A DNA stretch of 64,000 bases, taken from assembly GCA_029982205.1 (NCBI GenBank), contig JARRCM010000005.1, positions 23,387 through 87,386 on the forward strand, written 5' to 3'. Every line of letters starts with the position of its first letter. Positions within the stretch are counted from its first letter, which is position 1. Position numbers and translations under genes: made by a program. Below are positions 22,261 through 59,940 of this stretch, in pieces. The notes below the pieces were generated by a model, which had not been told where the DNA came from, ran no database searches, and was given only the letters and a program-made list of their open reading frames with translations. The DNA comes from Thermosediminibacterales bacterium. Its GTDB lineage: Bacteria > Bacillota > Thermosediminibacteria > Koleobacterales > JARRCM01.

Positions 22261-22570
22261 CAAAAAACCCCCGCCCTTCATTAGGGACGAGGGAATGCCT
22301 CGTGTTACCACCCAAATTCGCCATAACCTCACGGTTAAAGCCTCTCTAAGTATTGAGCCGATACTCAATACCCTCGGTATTAACGGACCAGACTCTCCGG
22401 CTCAACCTAATAACCGATTATAGAGCTATAATCGGGGTTCAGCCGAGCGGTTCAGGGGCCATCTTCAATACAGCCTTCAACTGCCGGCTTTCACCTTTCC
22501 CGGCTCTCTTTTAAGTTTCACACTGTATTTACTCTTCCCGTCATCACCTTTTAGAATCAGGTTATGAAAT
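22261..22570 (-). promoter_or_regulatory. T-box riboswitch leader of metG
   Basis: Minus strand contains T-box core 'GGGTGGTAACACGAGGCATTCCCTCGTCCC' and terminator 'GGGCGGGGGTTTTTT'; likely specifier ATG in 'GAAGATGGCCCCTGAAC'. Confidence 0.92.
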
Positions 22571-36712: not shown

Positions 36713-37441
36713 TCAATGAACAATGTTGATTTTCAGGGTTTGTGGATACTGGTCAAAAGAGATTAATGTTAAACAAGCCTGCCATCCCGCTGTGGCCCAC
36801 AGATATGCTTTTTCAATGAATACCCCTCTTTTAGCCAGTTCCTTTTGAATCTCCAAATCAACCCTGGTGACACCTGCTTCGGGATGATTCAAAAGGATCT
36901 TTCGGATTCCCATTTGTAAGGCTTCATCTATAAGCTTTAAACTCTCTTCCAAAGAAAGGTGAGAAGTTGCTATACACACATCGCTGTCTCTAATAATCTC
37001 TAAAATCTCCTTCACTTCGGGTTTTATATCCCCTTTTTCATCGAATATCCTCTGTGGTTTAAGGGGTCTTGTTTCCGAATTGGTATTCATGTTGGAATAG
37101 TTGCAGCTTCCATAATGATTCAAGTGGTTTTGAGCTGAAATTGTGGGCATCCATACTACCCTTGCTCCCAATTTTACCGCGCAATCCACAGCATCGGGGT
37201 TAAATCCTCCTACGAAGGAATTCAACACAATGGAACCAATCAATATTTCCCTGCCCAGTCTTCTATTAACCAAATGGGCACGGAAAACAGTGCTGCCTTC
37301 ATGGGCCTTTAAGACAACGGCCCTCATCTCTGCCTTTAAGGCTTCCTGAGCCAGCTGAAAATCATCTACTGTGCGGGGAAACAATCCCGGTCCCGAGTGG
37401 ACATGAATGTCTATGCAGTTCTTGAGGATTTTAGAAGACAA
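36713..37441 (-). CDS. DUF6282-like amidohydrolase-fold protein
   Basis: 'CIDIHVHSGPGLFPRTVDDFQLAQEALKAEMRAVVLKAHEGSTVFRA', 'ARVVWMPTISAQNH'. Confidence 0.7.
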   Translation of the reverse strand: MSSKILKNCIDIHVHSGPGLFPRTVDDFQLAQEALKAEMRAVVLKAHEGSTVFRAHLVNRRLGREILIGSIVLNSFVGGFNPDAVDCAVKLGARVVWMPTISAQNHLNHYGSCNYSNMNTNSETRPLKPQRIFDEKGDIKPEVKEILEIIRDSDVCIATSHLSLEESLKLIDEALQMGIRKILLNHPEAGVTRVDLEIQKELAKRGVFIEKAYLWATAGWQACLTLISFDQYPQTLKINIVH

Positions 37442-37509: not shown

Positions 37510-38421
37510 TTAGTGGACCAGAGGTTTATAGAAAAACGTCCTTCTGGAGGATATTAACTTTTCTTGATTAAACCACCAATCAGGTTGGATTGTTTTAAAA
37601 CTTACAATCAGTGCTTCTTCCCTGTCTTTTGAAGCTATCACAGGTTGATCCAATCCATATAGGGGATCCAACGTATATAGTGCACTTCTACCGAGATAAT
37701 TGTTTGAACTTCCTATAAAATTTGAAACAATGGTATACGCCTGTGAACTCATTGTTATTGAATCCCATAGACACATAGCTCCCTCTGGATATCTATTGGT
37801 CGAAATATTTTTATCTATTTTTATTTCCTTCCCAAAATCCCCATTCCAGGCAGAAGGAATAACAATGATATCAGCTCTTTTCACAGCCATTACCCCCGCA
37901 ACCTCCGGAAACGCTGCATCATATCCAATCATCACGCCAATTTTACCTAATTCTGTTGAGAAAACTTTAATTTCATCCCCGGGTTGAGCCCATTGTTTAT
38001 CTAATTCATTTAAATGAGTCTTTCTATATTTTCCTATAACGTCACCTTTAGGGCTTACCAACACTGCAGTATTATAAAGTTTGTCCTTATCCTTCTCAAC
38101 CATACCAAAAACAATATATAATGAGTAATCCTTCGCTATTTCTTTAAAAGTTCTTACAGTAGTACCATTTAAAGTTTCTGTCAGTTTACCGGCTTCTTCC
38201 AAACCCTTAACTGGACCCGTTGTGGCAAGCTCAGGTAAAACTATTAAATTCAATTTTTTATCTTCATTTTTAGCCTTTAAAATTGCATCCTTTATTAATT
38301 TTTTTATCTTAATAATGTTGGCTTCCTTATCATTAATCTCAGGTTCATACTGGAGAATTGCCACAGTTATATTTTTAGGAGTTGTATTTTTCGTATAATC
38401 CCATGATGAAATATAAAACAT
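37510..38421 (-). CDS. Carbon-nitrogen hydrolase (nitrilase superfamily) domain; probably the C-terminal domain of a disrupted two-domain gene
   Basis: 'ITVAILQYEPEINDKEANIIKIKKLI', 'LIVLPELATTG', 'GKYRKTHLNELDKQWAQPG', 'IGVMIGYDAAFPEVA'. Coding-like frame continues upstream of ATG to a TAG. Confidence 0.8.
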   Translation of the reverse strand: MFYISSWDYTKNTTPKNITVAILQYEPEINDKEANIIKIKKLIKDAILKAKNEDKKLNLIVLPELATTGPVKGLEEAGKLTETLNGTTVRTFKEIAKDYSLYIVFGMVEKDKDKLYNTAVLVSPKGDVIGKYRKTHLNELDKQWAQPGDEIKVFSTELGKIGVMIGYDAAFPEVAGVMAVKRADIIVIPSAWNGDFGKEIKIDKNISTNRYPEGAMCLWDSITMSSQAYTIVSNFIGSSNNYLGRSALYTLDPLYGLDQPVIASKDREEALIVSFKTIQPDWWFNQEKLISSRRTFFYKPLVH

Positions 38422-38453
38422 TAATTCTTTGTAAAGTTCGAGTCTTCTCTCCT

Positions 38454-38780
38454 TTAATCTCCTTTTTGCCTAGAGATTGTATCTACAAATGGTTCTATAG
38501 CCTTTCTATCCGCATAATAATAACCCGTTGTAGCCATTTCCGGAGTAACAATTAATTTTGCACCGTTTTGAGCAGCCTCTGTGACTACTTTTAATAAGGC
38601 TTCAACATTTTTATCTCGCTCATTTAGCTGCGGATTAAACTGTACCGCTGCCACTTTGATTGGTCCATTCAATTCACTTGCAGAGGTATCTTTTGTCAGA
38701 TTGTCACAACCTGCTATTAAAAGAGTTATTAAAGCAACAAGAATAAGGCTCAATACTTTTGCATTTCTTCTGAATTTCAC
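38454..38780 (-). pseudogene. N-terminal fragment of a lipoprotein carbon-nitrogen hydrolase
   Basis: Signal/lipobox 'LLIAGCDN' then nitrilase N-terminus 'IKVAAVQFNPQLNERDKNVEALLKVVTEAAQNGAKLIVTPEMATTGYYY'; stops abruptly after 109 aa, missing Lys and Cys catalytic segments. Confidence 0.7.
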
Positions 38781-38858: not shown

Positions 38859-40244
38859 TTACATTCCCGTAACAACCTCTTCTTCGCCCGGCCGCAGTTC
38901 AGCAGCACCTTTGTTCTGCAACCCGTATTTCAGAGCCGTTACAGCCCACAGAGCAATACAGATGGCAACCAGCAGAGCACCTGCGAGAATTACGTTTCCT
39001 TTGGCAACATAAACAGGCAATATTGATATGAGAGCCAGCTCTATTACCGAAATGAACACGTATGCCATTCCATAATCCTCTAAAGTACCGCTCTTAAATT
39101 CGGGGTCCACAATTCTGAGAAGGGTAACACCCATTGCCACAACTCCCGTTGTCCAACCATATATGAAAATGGAACGTTCAAACCAGAAGTTGTGGAAAAG
39201 TTTTTTCCCAATAACCAGCACATAGAACACACTCCAGGCTATACCGATTAACACCATAATCAATATCGGAGCTGCATATTTTATAACAATGGAAATCTTA
39301 ATAGAAGCTACTCCAAAGGCAACAAGATAGTCCGTCACACTGCTGCCTATTCTTGTTATGATTTTCTTGTCAACGTAGTCCCCCAGACCAACAATGTTGA
39401 GTATCATCTGCAGAACAACTCCGGAAAGCATTGAGAGACACATCATGGGCAGGCTTATTTTAGGCATAATTGCTTTAAATGCATAGTATGAATAATATCC
39501 TCCTGCTGATGCTATAAGGACCAGTAGCAGATGCCAGGTAAGGGGATCTATTGACATGGGATTTACCGTCTGTTTACCTATTTCCTGTCTTTCATTCTCA
39601 GGCACTAACCCGGTCTGCATGCTTTCAGGCAATTCCTTGATGGTTTTAATAAATCTGGTGGCTCTTATCCTGGTTGCCAGGTTTATTAAAGCCAGGCCCC
39701 CTAAAATTCCAGAAAGCAGCCCTATTGTGGCAAAGGTCTGACCGATTGTCAGGGCTTCTCCCCAGCCCGCTACGTCTTTCAGGGTTCCACCTATTGCCGC
39801 TGCATAACCATGACCACCTACAAAACCGGCCGGCTGCAGAATGGAAAAAGCTTCTGGCACGTTAGGGAACAACTTACCGAGTATGATTCCACCAACCAAC
39901 AGAGCCACTCCGAATCCTCCGAATTCAGCGGCCATGTTCAATGTAAAGGTGTCTCCCACTTCATCTACAACCTTTTTAAAGGATGTCTTTTGAGTATTCC
40001 CTATAAACAGGGAAGCAAACAGCACAACAACCAGCATGTAGGCATAACTGGAAATCTTATCACTGAAAGGAAGCACGTTTAAAAACTGTTTTCCTAAAAA
40101 CAAACCCAGGAAACCAGCAATAAGGGATGACGGCAGGTAGAGGTTCTGTATAATCTTTACCTTTGATCTGAGATACTGGGCTATAAACAGCAGCACAGAC
40201 ATCAAAGCAAAATCCATCAGCATTGCATACGGCCCAAATTCCAT
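38859..40244 (-). CDS. Sodium/glutamate symporter (GltS-like)
   Basis: 'LYLPSSLIAGFLGLFLGKQ', 'NMAAEFGGFGVALLVGG', 'PAGFVGGHGYAAAIGGTLKD', multi-TM. Confidence 0.82.
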   Translation of the reverse strand: MEFGPYAMLMDFALMSVLLFIAQYLRSKVKIIQNLYLPSSLIAGFLGLFLGKQFLNVLPFSDKISSYAYMLVVVLFASLFIGNTQKTSFKKVVDEVGDTFTLNMAAEFGGFGVALLVGGIILGKLFPNVPEAFSILQPAGFVGGHGYAAAIGGTLKDVAGWGEALTIGQTFATIGLLSGILGGLALINLATRIRATRFIKTIKELPESMQTGLVPENERQEIGKQTVNPMSIDPLTWHLLLVLIASAGGYYSYYAFKAIMPKISLPMMCLSMLSGVVLQMILNIVGLGDYVDKKIITRIGSSVTDYLVAFGVASIKISIVIKYAAPILIMVLIGIAWSVFYVLVIGKKLFHNFWFERSIFIYGWTTGVVAMGVTLLRIVDPEFKSGTLEDYGMAYVFISVIELALISILPVYVAKGNVILAGALLVAICIALWAVTALKYGLQNKGAAELRPGEEEVVTGM

Positions 40245-40344: not shown

Positions 40345-41235
40345 TTATTTCCTCAAAATTTTCTCAAAGAAGCGGTTTAATTCTTCAACTAGTTTTTGAA
40401 ACACTGGCTTGTCTTCAAACATAAAATCGTTATGTTTTCCTTCAATAAGATAGAGTTGTTTGGGTTCTTTTGCTTTTTCGTAGAGGGAAAGAGCTTCATC
40501 CACAGGATGCAGAGCATTGTATTTCCCGTGAGCAATAAATATGGGTCTTGGAGAAATCTTAGCAACAACTTCTTCAGCATTGAAGTTACAGATGGATTCT
40601 CCCAGCACATATGCCGTTTGAGGCCCAAAACCGTCTACAGGCTCAAGATCCGCTTTAACTACATCCTCCGTATCCGGATCCAAGGGATAGAAGGTATAGG
40701 GGTTACCGTATTTGGATTCTCCCGTTGTCACTCGGCGAACTCTGTCTTCTTCCATCAATTTTTTCAATTTTAACCAGTCAACATAAGTATGCACGGATTT
40801 CATCCATCTTTCACCATTATAGAATCCGTTCAATGCAGCTACGCCCTTCACCCGTTCATCTTCAGCCGTTACTTTTGTAACTATAGCGGCACCCATACCC
40901 CAACCAATGAGGCCAATGTTATCAGGATCAACCTCATCCTGAAGCTGAGCGAAAGTGATAGCGTTTTTGATATCTTCCACTTCATTCTCAAGGCGGCAGT
41001 AACCGGGGTTGCCTTCACTCTTGGCAAAACCCCTGTAATCGAACCCTAGACACACATACCCGTATTTGGTTAGACCCCTGGAAAAAAGCCTGGGATAAAT
41101 AGCGTTCAAACCTAGATATCCCGAATTGGGTATTATACAGGGACGTTTCTCCCCTTCCTTGTAATCATCAGGCAGGTAGAGAGTCCCATCAAGCTTGCAA
41201 CCTTCACTGTAAAAGCTGATTCTCCGCTCTTTCAT
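40345..41235 (-). CDS. Alpha/beta-hydrolase-fold protein with atypical nucleophile elbow
   Basis: 'RPCIIPNSGYLGLN...GYVCLGFDYRGFAKSEG', 'NIGLIGWGMGAAIV' (Gly where Ser expected), 'PIFIAHGKYNALHPVDEAL', 'EGKHNDFMF'. Confidence 0.8.
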   Translation of the reverse strand: MKERRISFYSEGCKLDGTLYLPDDYKEGEKRPCIIPNSGYLGLNAIYPRLFSRGLTKYGYVCLGFDYRGFAKSEGNPGYCRLENEVEDIKNAITFAQLQDEVDPDNIGLIGWGMGAAIVTKVTAEDERVKGVAALNGFYNGERWMKSVHTYVDWLKLKKLMEEDRVRRVTTGESKYGNPYTFYPLDPDTEDVVKADLEPVDGFGPQTAYVLGESICNFNAEEVVAKISPRPIFIAHGKYNALHPVDEALSLYEKAKEPKQLYLIEGKHNDFMFEDKPVFQKLVEELNRFFEKILRK

Positions 41236-41288
41236 TTTTATCTCCTCCTCCGTCTTTTTATGTTTTTAATATCTTTTCATTTATAAAA

Positions 41289-41303
41289 GCAAGGATTGTG
41301 CCA
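41289..41303 (-). promoter_or_regulatory. Sigma-54 (-24/-12) promoter upstream of alpha/beta hydrolase operon
   Basis: Minus strand TGGCAC-AATCC-TTGC; matches TGGCAC-N5-TTGC exactly. Confidence 0.88.
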
Positions 41304-41369
41304 TTATTGTTTTTAATCGAAACCTTAAGGACAAAGGTCTTCACCTTTTAATAAAAAAGCTGGGATTTA

Positions 41370-41399
41370 AAAAATTTTTTACTTTAGTAAAAAATTTTT
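41370..41399 (-). promoter_or_regulatory. Candidate upstream activating sequence for the sigma-54 activator
   Basis: Perfect palindrome AAAAATTTTTTACT TT AGTAAAAAATTTTT about 70-100 bp upstream of the -24/-12 promoter. Confidence 0.65.
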
Positions 41400-41428
41400 G
41401 ACAACAACAAACAGCTGAACATAAAAAA

Positions 41429-41461
41429 CACTGAAAAGGGATTTATTAACCCTTTTCAGTG
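41429..41461 (-). terminator. Terminator of the kinase/regulator/SBP operon
   Basis: CACTGAAAAGGG...CCCTTTTCAGTG followed on minus strand by TTTTTTAT. Confidence 0.88.
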
Positions 41462-41485
41462 TCTTATTAAATCAAAATGGGCATT

Positions 41486-42427
41486 TCACTCAGCAATCAA
41501 ACCGTTTTTTACCAGCCATTCTCTTGCAACCACCGTAACATTCCTGTGCTCCATATCTATTAAATAATTTAAGTTTTTCATGCTTTTTTCATCCAGACGG
41601 GAGCTGATGTCCCGTAGATATCTTTCAAGCTCCGGAGATTTTTCTAACACTTCCTTACGGATAACAGGGGTGGCATCATAAACAGGGAAAAAGTGTTTAT
41701 CATCCTTTAAGGGTATGAGGTTGAATCCTTCTATCCGGCCATCGGTAGCAAAACCCACTGCTACATCTACCACTTTTTCTCTCAGGGAGATGTAGGTCAA
41801 ACCCGCTTCCATTTTTATTATATTTTCCTCAGGGAATTTGAAACCGTACTTTGCTTCAAGGCCTTTTAGGCCATCTTTACGACTGCAGAACTCTGCATTG
41901 GACCCAAACATCAAATCCTGAGAATGCTCGTTTGCATAAGCGGCCAGGTCCGTAAGGGTTTTAATCCCCTTGTTTGCTGCATCCTCTTTACGCATCAAGA
42001 TGGTGTATGTGTTATTGAAGTCTGCTCTATCAAGCCATACAATGCCTTTTGGGGCATCCAGGGTTTTTACTTTTGTATATGCTTTTTCAGGATCCGTTTC
42101 CTTGGGTTGTTCATTAAATAACATCAACCCTGTACCCGTATACTCCCAGTAGAGATCAACATAACCCTCTTCAAGAGCAGCTCGAACTGCCCTGCTTCCC
42201 ATTGTGACCACTTCCTCAACCTCAAACCCCTTTTCTCTCAAGTAAATGGAGGTGATTTTTGAAAGAATAATCTGTTCTGTGAAGTTCTTGCTTCCCACAA
42301 CTATCGTGCCCTTTTTGTTAATGTGAGAATTGATGTTATGGGATTCCCCACAGCCTGTCAAAACAGCTGATCCTAAAAGGATGCAGCTGATTATTATTAA
42401 TGTATATTTAAAATGCATTTTTTTCAT
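41486..42427 (-). CDS. Glycine betaine/choline-type (OpuAC-like) substrate-binding lipoprotein, orphan (no permease or ATPase nearby)
   Basis: Lipobox 'LTGCGES'; 'IVVGSKNFTEQIILSKITSIYLREKGFEVEEVVTMGS', 'DLYWEYTGTGLM'. Confidence 0.9.
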   Translation of the reverse strand: MKKMHFKYTLIIISCILLGSAVLTGCGESHNINSHINKKGTIVVGSKNFTEQIILSKITSIYLREKGFEVEEVVTMGSRAVRAALEEGYVDLYWEYTGTGLMLFNEQPKETDPEKAYTKVKTLDAPKGIVWLDRADFNNTYTILMRKEDAANKGIKTLTDLAAYANEHSQDLMFGSNAEFCSRKDGLKGLEAKYGFKFPEENIIKMEAGLTYISLREKVVDVAVGFATDGRIEGFNLIPLKDDKHFFPVYDATPVIRKEVLEKSPELERYLRDISSRLDEKSMKNLNYLIDMEHRNVTVVAREWLVKNGLIAE

Positions 42428-42452: not shown

Positions 42453-43826
42453 TTAACTGCGCAGATTGTATTTCTGAAGCTTATACATCAGGCTCTGCCT
42501 GGATATCTTCAACAGATTTGCAGCCCTGGCATAGTTACCATTACTTTTGTTGAGGGCTTCAACAATGAGGTGTTTCTCAACGTCTTCAACCTGTTCCGGC
42601 AGAGATTTTTTGGGGGATAGCCTTAACGTCAACCCCTTATCTCGGTAAAGGCTTTTCTGCTGCCATACTTCCACAGGAAAATCCTGAAGGAGAATCCTCT
42701 CTCCCCGACTCAAAACCGTCACTCGTTCAATAGCATTTTTTAGTTCCCTTATATTCCCGGGCCAGTGGTATTCCATCAATGCCTCCATCACATTGCTCTC
42801 TATATGAAAAGAGCGGCCCAGCTTCTTCTCCTGTTCTGAGAGGAACTGAGCTACCAGGAGAGGTATGTCCTCTTTCCTTTTTCTCAAGGGTGGAACCTTG
42901 ATGGTTACAATATTGAGCCTGTAGTAGAGATCTTCTCGAAATAAACCTTCTTCCACCATTTTGGATAAATCTCTGTTGGTGGCAGCAATAATCCTTACAT
43001 CCACCTTATGCACTCTGTTGCTTCCCAGCTGTGTAAAGCTTTTTTCTTGAGTTACCTGAAGGAGTTTGGCCTGCAGAGAAAGGGGTAGTTCACCTATTTC
43101 ATCCAGAAATATTGTCCCTCCATCGGCAGCGGCAAATTTTCCCTGGCGGCTTTCTGTTGCTCCGGTGAAAGCTCCCCGTACATATCCAAAAAGTTCACTT
43201 TCCAGTAGATGTTCCGGAATCGCAGCACAATTCACCGTTACGAAAGGTTTATCCTTCCGGCGGCTTTTCCCATGGATCTCCCCGGCTATCAGGCTTTTCC
43301 CCGTACCGCTCTCCCCCTCTATCAAAACATTTATATCACTGTCAGCCACCTTCTCGACCATATAATTTACCCGTTCCATAGCAGGGCTGCGGCTGATGAG
43401 GATGGTGTCTTTTTCTCTTGATTTGACCATTGCCCTCAACTTCTCGTTTTCTTCTTTCATCTGTATCCAGTTAAAAGCTCGTTCTAAGAACAGTTTTAAT
43501 TCTTCAAATTTGACAGGCTTACAGATGTAGTCGAATGCTCCCAGTTTCATGGCTGTAACGGCGCTTTCCACATTCCCATAGGCAGTTAAAATTATGGTTT
43601 TCACATCAGGGCAAAGGGAAGTCACTTTGGGTAGCACATCAAGCCCTGTCATATCAGGAAGCATAAGGTCCAACAGCAGCACCTTTACCTTCTCCCTTTC
43701 AAGCATGCACAGAGCTTCTTCACCGGTTCCCGCCTGCAGAACGTGATAACCTTCTTCCTCCAGTTCTAGAGCAAGGATCTTTCTTAATTTTATCTCATCA
43801 TCTACCATGAGAATTGTCTTCTTCAA
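42453..43826 (-). CDS. Sigma-54-dependent response regulator (NtrC/AtoC-type)
   Basis: Receiver 'LLLDLMLPDMTGLDVLP'; AAA+ 'GESGTGKSLIAGEIH', GAFTGA loop 'RGAFTGATESRQGKF'; Fis-type HTH 'NYARAANLLKISRQSLMYKLQKY'. Confidence 0.96.
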   Translation of the reverse strand: MKKTILMVDDEIKLRKILALELEEEGYHVLQAGTGEEALCMLEREKVKVLLLDLMLPDMTGLDVLPKVTSLCPDVKTIILTAYGNVESAVTAMKLGAFDYICKPVKFEELKLFLERAFNWIQMKEENEKLRAMVKSREKDTILISRSPAMERVNYMVEKVADSDINVLIEGESGTGKSLIAGEIHGKSRRKDKPFVTVNCAAIPEHLLESELFGYVRGAFTGATESRQGKFAAADGGTIFLDEIGELPLSLQAKLLQVTQEKSFTQLGSNRVHKVDVRIIAATNRDLSKMVEEGLFREDLYYRLNIVTIKVPPLRKRKEDIPLLVAQFLSEQEKKLGRSFHIESNVMEALMEYHWPGNIRELKNAIERVTVLSRGERILLQDFPVEVWQQKSLYRDKGLTLRLSPKKSLPEQVEDVEKHLIVEALNKSNGNYARAANLLKISRQSLMYKLQKYNLRS

Positions 43827-45969
43827 GTTTATCCCCTCCTGCTTCTAATTTGGGAAACACGCAAATCATTGTTGTTCCTTTATTGATTTCGCTTTCCACT
43901 GCAATGCTACCGTTGTGCTGATTGATGATCTCATGGACTATTGCCAGGCCAAGACCTGTTCCCGTCAGTTTGGTGGAGAAAAAGGGGTTGAAAATCCGCT
44001 GCAGATTGGATTTCTTTATACCCTTACCTGTATCTTTGATGTAAACACACCAGTTTCGTTTTTGTTCTTCAACGGCAATGGTAAGTTCCCCACCATTCTC
44101 CATGGCCTGCATGCTGTTTATGATGATGTTTAAAAAAGCCTGGGTAATTCTGTTTTTGTTGCCGTTGATCACAGCCTTTCCGGCCCTGTAGTTTCGATAC
44201 ACCGTAATGTTTCGGGCCTTAAAATTGCTCTGAAGGGCAGATATGAGTTCATCCAGGATCGGTATCAAATCCAGCGGCTGCAATTCTCCCGGGTCTCCTT
44301 TAGAAAGCTGCAGGAAATCCTGGAGCAGTTTATTCATCCTAGCGGCGGCTTCCAGGATATTGTCTACCAATTCTTCGGTATAGGCATCTTTTGACTCGTT
44401 TTTCTTCTGTCTTCGCTGCAGAGCCTCTGCCGCAGCAGAAACTATATTCAATGGATTTTTTATCTCGTGGGCTATTCCGGCCGTTAACTGGCCAAGAGCG
44501 GCTAGGCGTTCTGAACGATAAAGATGCTGCTGCAGTTTCTTAAGTTCCGCTACATCGCGAATAACCACTATTGCTCCTGAATTGTATGATTCTTGAAGAA
44601 ACAGCGGAGCACAGTAAAGCCTTACATCATGGTGCTGGCCTTTTTTGTCCAGTACATAGGTTTCCGCTTCATCCACTATTTCCCCTTTTTCTAACGTCTG
44701 GCGGAACAGCAGCTCCTCCCCCGGCTTCTTCAAATTCAAATCGAACAGGGAGCGACCTATAACCTCTTTTCGTGAATACAGGAGCAAATCCTCAGCTCCT
44801 CTGTTAAAGCTCCTGATAATACCCTTTTTATCGGTAGTAATTACGGCATAAGGAATGGATTCCAGAATCTGAAACAGGGATTTTTCCTTTCTTATAAGCT
44901 TGGAAGCCATTTGGTGCATTGTATTGGAGAGCACGGTAAGTTCATCTTCCGTATCCATTCTTTCAAAATTTACAGCTTCACCTTTGCTGTAGCTTTTGGC
45001 CTGTTCCGTTAATTTGATGATGGGCTGGACCACCCGGTTTGTCCCGGAATAAACCATGGCTATGGCAATAAAGATAATAACCACAAAACACTGAATCAAC
45101 AACCGGCTTAACCGTGCTGTGGGAATGAAGGCCTGGGTTACAGGTTCTCCTATTACAAGCCCGAGGTTTCCATAGGAAAGGGGGTAGTAGGATGCAATAA
45201 CCTTCCTATCATTAAGCTCACCCAACCATATACCATGTTTCCCTCTTCTTAAAGCATCGCTCAAATTGGTTTCTTCCACATCACTCCCAATAAGGGTTTT
45301 ATTCGTATGGACTATTATGTTTCCTTTCCCATCCAGCAGAAAACAGAACCCCTTTTCTCCCAACCTGCTCTGATAAAGAAAATCAGACAGCACTTCAAGG
45401 TTTAAAAAGGCAATGAAACCACCCTCAAAAACATCAGATGTTCTGGAAAGAGGGGTGGCAACCCCTATGGTTTTTCTACCATCCGGCAGAGTCATTATAT
45501 CTGTAACAAAAGGTGCCCTGCTCCATTTAATACGTTCAATGATAGAATCAAGCTTTAGCTCTGCTTCATCGAATTTGATTCTCGGAACTCTTTCAACTAT
45601 TTCACCCTTTTCGTTAAAAAACTGTATAAACAAATACCAGGGTTTAGTTGCCACAAGGTTTTCCATACGTTTAGTGAAAAAGGCATCATTACCTCTTTCG
45701 AAACTTGATTCATACATCATGAGATCATTCTCAATATCCAAAAAAATCTGTTTAAACTGCAGGCTGAGGGCCTTGTTCAGCAAATAATCTCTGTTTTCTA
45801 TTTCCCTGCGAAGGGCGGTTTTTGAGAAATAATCCACCAGCACCCATACCACAAAGAGGGATAGAAGCAAAACCACAAAAGTGAAGAGAAAATATTTTTT
45901 TGTCAGTTTTGTGCGAAAAATCCTCATCATCGATGCATCCCTCTCTAAAAAAATTCTTCTATTGAACAC
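43798..45969 (-). CDS. Sensor histidine kinase (extracellular Cache-like sensor, HAMP, PAS, HisKA, HATPase)
   Basis: TM-flanked N-terminal sensor, 'GIIRSFNRGAEDLLLYSRKEVIG' PAS, 'GQLTAGIAHEIKNPLN' H-box, 'NGGELTIAV', 'GKGIKKSNLQRIFNPFFSTKLTGTGLGLAI'. Confidence 0.95.
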   Translation of the reverse strand: MFNRRIFLERDASMMRIFRTKLTKKYFLFTFVVLLLSLFVVWVLVDYFSKTALRREIENRDYLLNKALSLQFKQIFLDIENDLMMYESSFERGNDAFFTKRMENLVATKPWYLFIQFFNEKGEIVERVPRIKFDEAELKLDSIIERIKWSRAPFVTDIMTLPDGRKTIGVATPLSRTSDVFEGGFIAFLNLEVLSDFLYQSRLGEKGFCFLLDGKGNIIVHTNKTLIGSDVEETNLSDALRRGKHGIWLGELNDRKVIASYYPLSYGNLGLVIGEPVTQAFIPTARLSRLLIQCFVVIIFIAIAMVYSGTNRVVQPIIKLTEQAKSYSKGEAVNFERMDTEDELTVLSNTMHQMASKLIRKEKSLFQILESIPYAVITTDKKGIIRSFNRGAEDLLLYSRKEVIGRSLFDLNLKKPGEELLFRQTLEKGEIVDEAETYVLDKKGQHHDVRLYCAPLFLQESYNSGAIVVIRDVAELKKLQQHLYRSERLAALGQLTAGIAHEIKNPLNIVSAAAEALQRRQKKNESKDAYTEELVDNILEAAARMNKLLQDFLQLSKGDPGELQPLDLIPILDELISALQSNFKARNITVYRNYRAGKAVINGNKNRITQAFLNIIINSMQAMENGGELTIAVEEQKRNWCVYIKDTGKGIKKSNLQRIFNPFFSTKLTGTGLGLAIVHEIINQHNGSIAVESEINKGTTMICVFPKLEAGGDKLEEDNSHGR

Positions 45970-53633: not shown

Positions 53634-53901
53634 GCCGTGCACCCTACCTCGACTTTCCTCTACAGGCGTTACCCCGACAGTTAACTCTGATCAGGCACTC
53701 CTGCGGCACATGGAAGGGCTTACTTACCGCTGCTTCCTCCCGGACCTGACGGGGTTCATAAGTTTCCATTGCGCAGGACCCAATCTTCTTCGCCACTTAT
53801 CCGGGCCGGTCCCCACAGAGGAAAAGCCTCAGAAGGGAATTCAACCCCGCTATAGCGGATTGCGGGTTACAGGGCACCGCTACCTCCCCGTCTAGCACGG
53901 C
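53634..53901 (-). ncRNA. ffs: Signal recognition particle RNA (large bacterial type)
   Basis: Minus strand contains 'GTCAGGTCCGGGAGGAAGCAGCGGTAAG' apical core; ends pair (GCCGTGCTAGACGGGG... / ...GCACGGC); flanked by dnaX and tRNA-Ser/tadA. Confidence 0.93.

Positions 53902-58383: not shown

Positions 58384-59940
<1,557 letters not shown>

Follow-up and report, generated by a model that had tools for sequence, protein, structure and literature searches.

The sequence TGGCACAATCCTTGC, located on the minus strand at positions 41289-41303 of the analysed 64-kb stretch of DNA (hereafter the window), is very probably a working sigma-54 promoter of a catabolic operon coding for an alpha/beta-hydrolase-fold enzyme, a GltS-like symporter, a nitrilase and a DUF6282 protein, with the neighbouring NtrC-type regulator acting as its activator. 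This assignment, which was made from sequence comparisons, is supported by the presence of rpoN, by the genome-wide placement of such sites, by the conservation of the promoter in two orthologous loci (L076 and L077) and by a probable activator site. The arrangement is ordinary for such bacteria, with two mildly unusual parts. The order on the minus strand is kinase, NtrC-type regulator, OpuAC lipoprotein, terminator, palindrome, promoter, hydrolase-fold gene, GltS-like symporter, nitrilase and DUF6282, and the features are the following:

43798-45969, minus strand: sensor histidine kinase (dCache - HAMP - PAS - HisKA - HATPase; Pfam, with HAMP slightly under the cut-off), overlapping the activator gene
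42453-43826, minus strand: NtrC-type response regulator (receiver - AAA+ with GAFTGA - Fis-type HTH; Pfam), TTG start
41486-42427, minus strand: OpuAC/OsmF-type solute-binding lipoprotein of 313 aa (domain search; lipobox LTGC read by eye)
about 41422-41462, minus strand: intrinsic terminator with a 13-bp stem, a 9-nt loop and a T run, at the end of the kinase-activator-lipoprotein transcript
41370-41399, no strand: 30-bp palindrome AAAAATTTTTTACTTTAGTAAAAAATTTTT, probable activator site (UAS), centred about 81 bp upstream of the -24 element
41333-41348, no strand: short inverted repeat AAAGGTGAAGACCTTT, about 37 bp from the promoter
41289-41303, minus strand: predicted sigma-54 -24/-12 promoter (motif scans, genome-wide placement), predicted start near 41277
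40345-41235, minus strand: alpha/beta-hydrolase-fold protein, first target gene, with the nucleophile Ser replaced (GWGMG)
38859-40244, minus strand: GltS-like sodium symporter (Pfam), a conserved partner in the locus comparison
37510-38780, minus strand: two-domain nitrilase lipoprotein gene, broken (Pfam and comparison with L076)
36713-37441, minus strand: DUF6282 protein, last gene of the conserved set (Pfam, locus comparison)

The first-pass annotation had described the site as a perfect TGGCAC-N5-TTGC on the minus strand; sequence, strand and coordinates turned out to be exact, and the site is indeed the only zero-mismatch match to this pattern on either strand of the 64 kb. It carries the GG and GC elements of TGGCAC/T-N5-TTGC, is intergenic and correctly oriented for the hydrolase-fold gene, and lies 53 bp (about 54 bp had been noted) before the ATG at 41235, which is preceded by a strong ribosome-binding site, GGAGGAGG. 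Since shuffled 64-kb windows contained a mean of 0.13 perfect matches and 12 of 100 shuffles had at least one, the string alone is only weak evidence in a stretch of this length. With up to two mismatches allowed, the window held 47 sites compared to 47.07 expected by chance; thus, the perfect site alone is exceptional, and the case for it has to rest on where it lies. The intergenic placement, the orientation and the 53-bp distance add much to the evidence from the string. A sigma-A consensus scan gave no match between 41235 and 41486, and neither a riboswitch nor a leader was detected in an Rfam search of the region upstream of the hydrolase-fold gene. Elsewhere in the window, we found two T-box leaders (59718-59936 and 22280-22553, both minus strand) and a gene for the large bacterial SRP RNA (53635-53900, minus strand) near a cluster of six tRNA matches.

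The assembly holding the window comprises 1.9 Mb in 49 contigs and is 86% complete. The rpoN gene, whose absence had been named as evidence against the promoter, is present in this genome (2.1e-62), and sigma-54 activators are encoded by about 20 genes (PF00158 gave 24 matches, some of them partial or weak). Genome-wide, three perfect TGGCAC-N5-TTGC sites were found compared to none for the reversed pattern; the respective numbers were 14 and 3 for TGGCAY-N5-TTGC, and 80 and 30 for sites with at most one mismatch. Twelve of the 14 TGGCAY-N5-TTGC sites are intergenic, and for 11 of these a gene on the same strand follows at 29-120 bp, the distance for the remaining one (C22) being 515 bp. Six of the 14 (C3, C17, C25, C29, C32 and C36) directly flank an activator gene, for which a rough model, taking 0.42% of the genome as flanking such a gene, gives a chance of about 1.6e-11 for six or more. 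The window site is one gene away from an activator gene and, if it is included, seven of the 14 sites are found beside activator clusters. The first or second genes downstream of the genome's sites include those for an acyl-CoA dehydrogenase, a CoA-transferase, an SSF symporter and an alcohol dehydrogenase; others code for a carboxymuconolactone-decarboxylase-family protein, for a permease of the NCS1 type with an S-Me-THD-like protein, and for an Nramp-like transporter with a further DUF6282 protein behind it. The latter DUF6282 gene (L061:10654-12908, C36) belongs to an operon with its own TGGCAT-N5-TTGC beside an activator gene. There are two clusters of the NCS1-type permease and S-Me-THD-like kind (L059 and L060, with C17 and C32), in which the sigma-54 site is divergent from the activator gene and the second S-Me-THD-like protein was judged by eye.

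The two closest orthologous loci both have a conserved sigma-54 promoter before the hydrolase gene. L076, from Clostridia bacterium SM3-B6.2, has the gene order of the window from the kinase through DUF6282, including a two-domain nitrilase, with identities of 64% for the kinase, 74% for the regulator, 56% for the lipoprotein, 70% for the hydrolase, 79% for the symporter and 66% for DUF6282. A perfect TGGCAT-N5-TTGC, TGGCATATTTATTGC, is found there at -66 from the hydrolase start, compared to -68 for the site in the window. L077, from Bacillus sp. FJAT-42315, has kinase and regulator genes inside the cluster and a perfect TGGCAT-N5-TTGC, TGGCATGATGTTTGC, at -59. Two further perfect sites in L077 precede a DUF6282 gene and a gene with glycine betaine monooxygenase as its best NCBIfam match (162.4 bits against a cut-off of 670), behind which lies a gene for a BCCT-type transporter. 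In L078, an activator gene is present and a one-mismatch site, TGGCTTGCTAATTGC, precedes the leading gene of the operon. Many other loci carry an RpiR-like regulator gene (judged by eye from the N-terminus) and sigma-A-like sequences before the hydrolase gene, without a sigma-54 site. Loss of rpoN was considered as the reason for these site-less relatives and rejected, since 10 of 11 genomes searched have rpoN. The gene set thus appears to switch its type of regulator, the sigma-54 site going with the activator gene. A search of the order, the class and the phylum for the hydrolase-fold protein yielded no further orthologs, so that conservation rests on the loci already collected.

The activator assignment was assessed from domain content and from the region upstream of the promoter. 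The GAFTGA loop attributed to the regulator is present (...ELFGYVRGAFTGATESRQ...), together with a receiver, an AAA+ domain and a Fis-type HTH, as in NtrC-type activators. Placing the site directly next to this gene was inexact, since the OpuAC gene intervenes and a terminator separates the two. This terminator (41428-41462) was missed by the terminator scanner because of its 9-nt loop and was confirmed by its fold (-24.9 kcal/mol versus -9.87 for shuffles; z = -5.4). Given its strength, the sensor genes and the target genes are most likely transcribed as two units, the newly recognised terminator keeping the hydrolase operon apart from the kinase, activator and lipoprotein genes upstream.

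The palindrome between terminator and promoter, also new here, is a probable activator site. Its arms are AAAAATTTTTTACT-N2-AGTAAAAAATTTTT, and L076 has a related palindrome, TGTAAAAAAAAATTTAC-TAAC-GTAAATTTTTTTTTACA, with the centre about 92 bp upstream of the -24 element; both palindrome-promoter distances were counted from the sequences and differ by about one helical turn. The two palindromes have the core TTTACTAAmGTAAA in common. Among 20,000 shuffled pairs, 62 shared a palindrome of such form, and none of 5,000 shuffles yielded one of this length. The perfect core is found once in the genome, at the window locus, and near matches to it are no commoner genome-wide than those to a reversed control. 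The palindrome has a very high A/T content and might instead be a bendable element or a weak terminator. L077 has the promoter, the kinase and the regulator, and lacks the lipoprotein gene and this palindrome core; neither is thus obligatory for sigma-54 control of the gene set. An activator site common to L077 was also considered: TAATTGTCAAAAT is common to the two promoters of L077, and near the palindrome the window has TTGTCAAAA, which is too short a match. The inverted repeat at 41333-41348 has a counterpart in L076, AAGGCAGAAGCCTT, at nearly equal distance from the promoter and with different arm letters.

An extremely improbable alternative is that the motif is a chance match, with the operon transcribed from a sigma-A promoter or reached by read-through of the lipoprotein transcript. 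The perfect sites in shuffled windows and the sigma-A-like sequences before the same gene in several distant relatives speak for it, but the orientation and spacing of the motif, its recurrence in L076 and L077 and the location of the genome's sites next to activator genes argue against chance, the terminator would block transcription from the lipoprotein gene, and the consensus scan left the intergenic region without a sigma-A candidate. That the promoter is real and responds to another of the genome's roughly 20 activators is very improbable as well: unlinked activators do control some regulons in Clostridiales (PMC6615313), yet the target has the regulator gene in its neighbourhood in all three loci (window, L076 and L077), and only at the window locus is the palindrome core perfect. 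The reading of a sigma-54 promoter driven by the neighbouring regulator is therefore preferred.

Two genes of the target operon deviate from their families. The hydrolase-fold protein has Gly at the Ser position of the GxSxG nucleophile motif of canonical alpha/beta hydrolases, and Gly or Ala is found there in all 13 aligned sequences (GWGMG, GWGVG, GWATG), in which a C-terminal KHN including the histidine is invariant; the aligned position in 7qjm is the Ser of GISLG. Since the Ser nucleophile is replaced, "hydrolase" here names the fold and no demonstrated activity. Compared to the L076 ortholog, the nitrilase gene lacks residues 102-289 (about 190, domain 1) and shows a frame change, reflecting either true decay or an assembly error; the break counts against the preferred reading. 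A literature search for DUF6282 found no study of this family.

The system resembles the sigma-54 regulons of Clostridiales (Nie, Dong and Yang 2019, PMC6615313) in its -24/-12 element (consensus TTGGCATNNNNNTTGCT), an activator beside a single target operon, a palindromic upstream site (here a probable one) and catabolic targets. Activators in that group are usually found beside their targets, 65% having one target operon (PMC6615313). The UAS-promoter distance there is typically 100-250 bp, and those in the window and L076 are slightly shorter. Two-component regulators, the type found in the window, make up only about 10% of Clostridiales activators, and none of the 39 activator groups listed names a hydrolase-GltS-nitrilase-DUF6282 target (PMC6615313). 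The best-scoring NCBIfam models for kinase and regulator are AtoS and AtoC, but the scores are far under the cut-offs (280.7 of 646 and 485.4 of 714, respectively) and the target genes differ. A single operon with genes for a kinase, a sigma-54 response regulator and a lipoprotein recalls QseE/QseF/QseG, in which the lipoprotein QseG is required for the kinase activity (PMC6075780); this likeness is drawn from operon make-up, and the window lipoprotein is an OpuAC solute-binding protein. With the quaternary-amine binding proteins OsmF, ProX and OpuCC it has the OpuAC domain and PDB relatives (ProX, OpuCC, EgtUC) in common, but it lacks adjoining ABC genes and scores 186 of a cut-off of 400 for the OsmF equivalog.

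In the window and in L076, a binding protein is thus encoded together with kinase and regulator, as the third gene of the sensor operon, and no ABC permease or ATPase gene lies beside it. Our literature searches found no clear description of such a kinase-regulator-OpuAC arrangement. By analogy with QseG, a sensory role of the lipoprotein is plausible, at a likelihood reaching at most an even chance because L077 manages without the gene. Somewhat less probable than its opposite is the full proposal that a betaine-type ABC binding lipoprotein has become detached from transport and now serves as receptor of a sigma-54 two-component system, which would make a three-component switch. The catabolic pathway so controlled would be an uncharacterised one, with a first enzyme of the alpha/beta-hydrolase fold that lacks the usual Ser nucleophile. 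Almost evenly balanced is the alternative, leaving the promoter unaffected, that the lipoprotein only transports with a distant ABC permease and the kinase senses alone. Members of the family bind betaines, choline and carnitine for uptake, many related genes adjoin ABC ATPase genes, and the kinase-regulator pair of L077 again fits this alternative. Relatives of the lipoprotein are found in 73 of 399 genomes of the phylum (this one counted), and 12 of 29 inspected loci had an ABC-ATPase motif within about 1.5 kb, in a motif test that left permeases mostly unscored. The position of the gene in the sensor operons, away from any permease or ATPase gene, and the finding of only one other OpuAC match, a weak one, in the genome speak against a role in transport alone.

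In the preferred reading of a sigma-54 switch, the kinase would sense an extracellular small molecule, either directly by its dCache domain or via the co-encoded OpuAC-type lipoprotein, and would phosphorylate the NtrC-type regulator. The phosphorylated regulator would bind the palindrome upstream of the promoter, make contact with the sigma-54 holoenzyme by its GAFTGA loop, and open the promoter at the expense of ATP. With the sensor operon stopping at its own terminator, the catabolic operon would be transcribed mainly when the activator is phosphorylated. The betaine theme, i.e. OpuAC here and BCCT transporter genes in L077 and L083, suggests that the ligand may be quaternary-amine-like.

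For a gene set of unassigned function, scattered in Firmicutes and a few other bacteria, these results supply a well-supported promoter together with an operon boundary and a probable activator site, and they suggest betaine-like compounds as a testable class of ligands. For the organism, the simple -24/-12 pattern is highly specific, and much of its sigma-54 regulon can be read almost directly from the genome.
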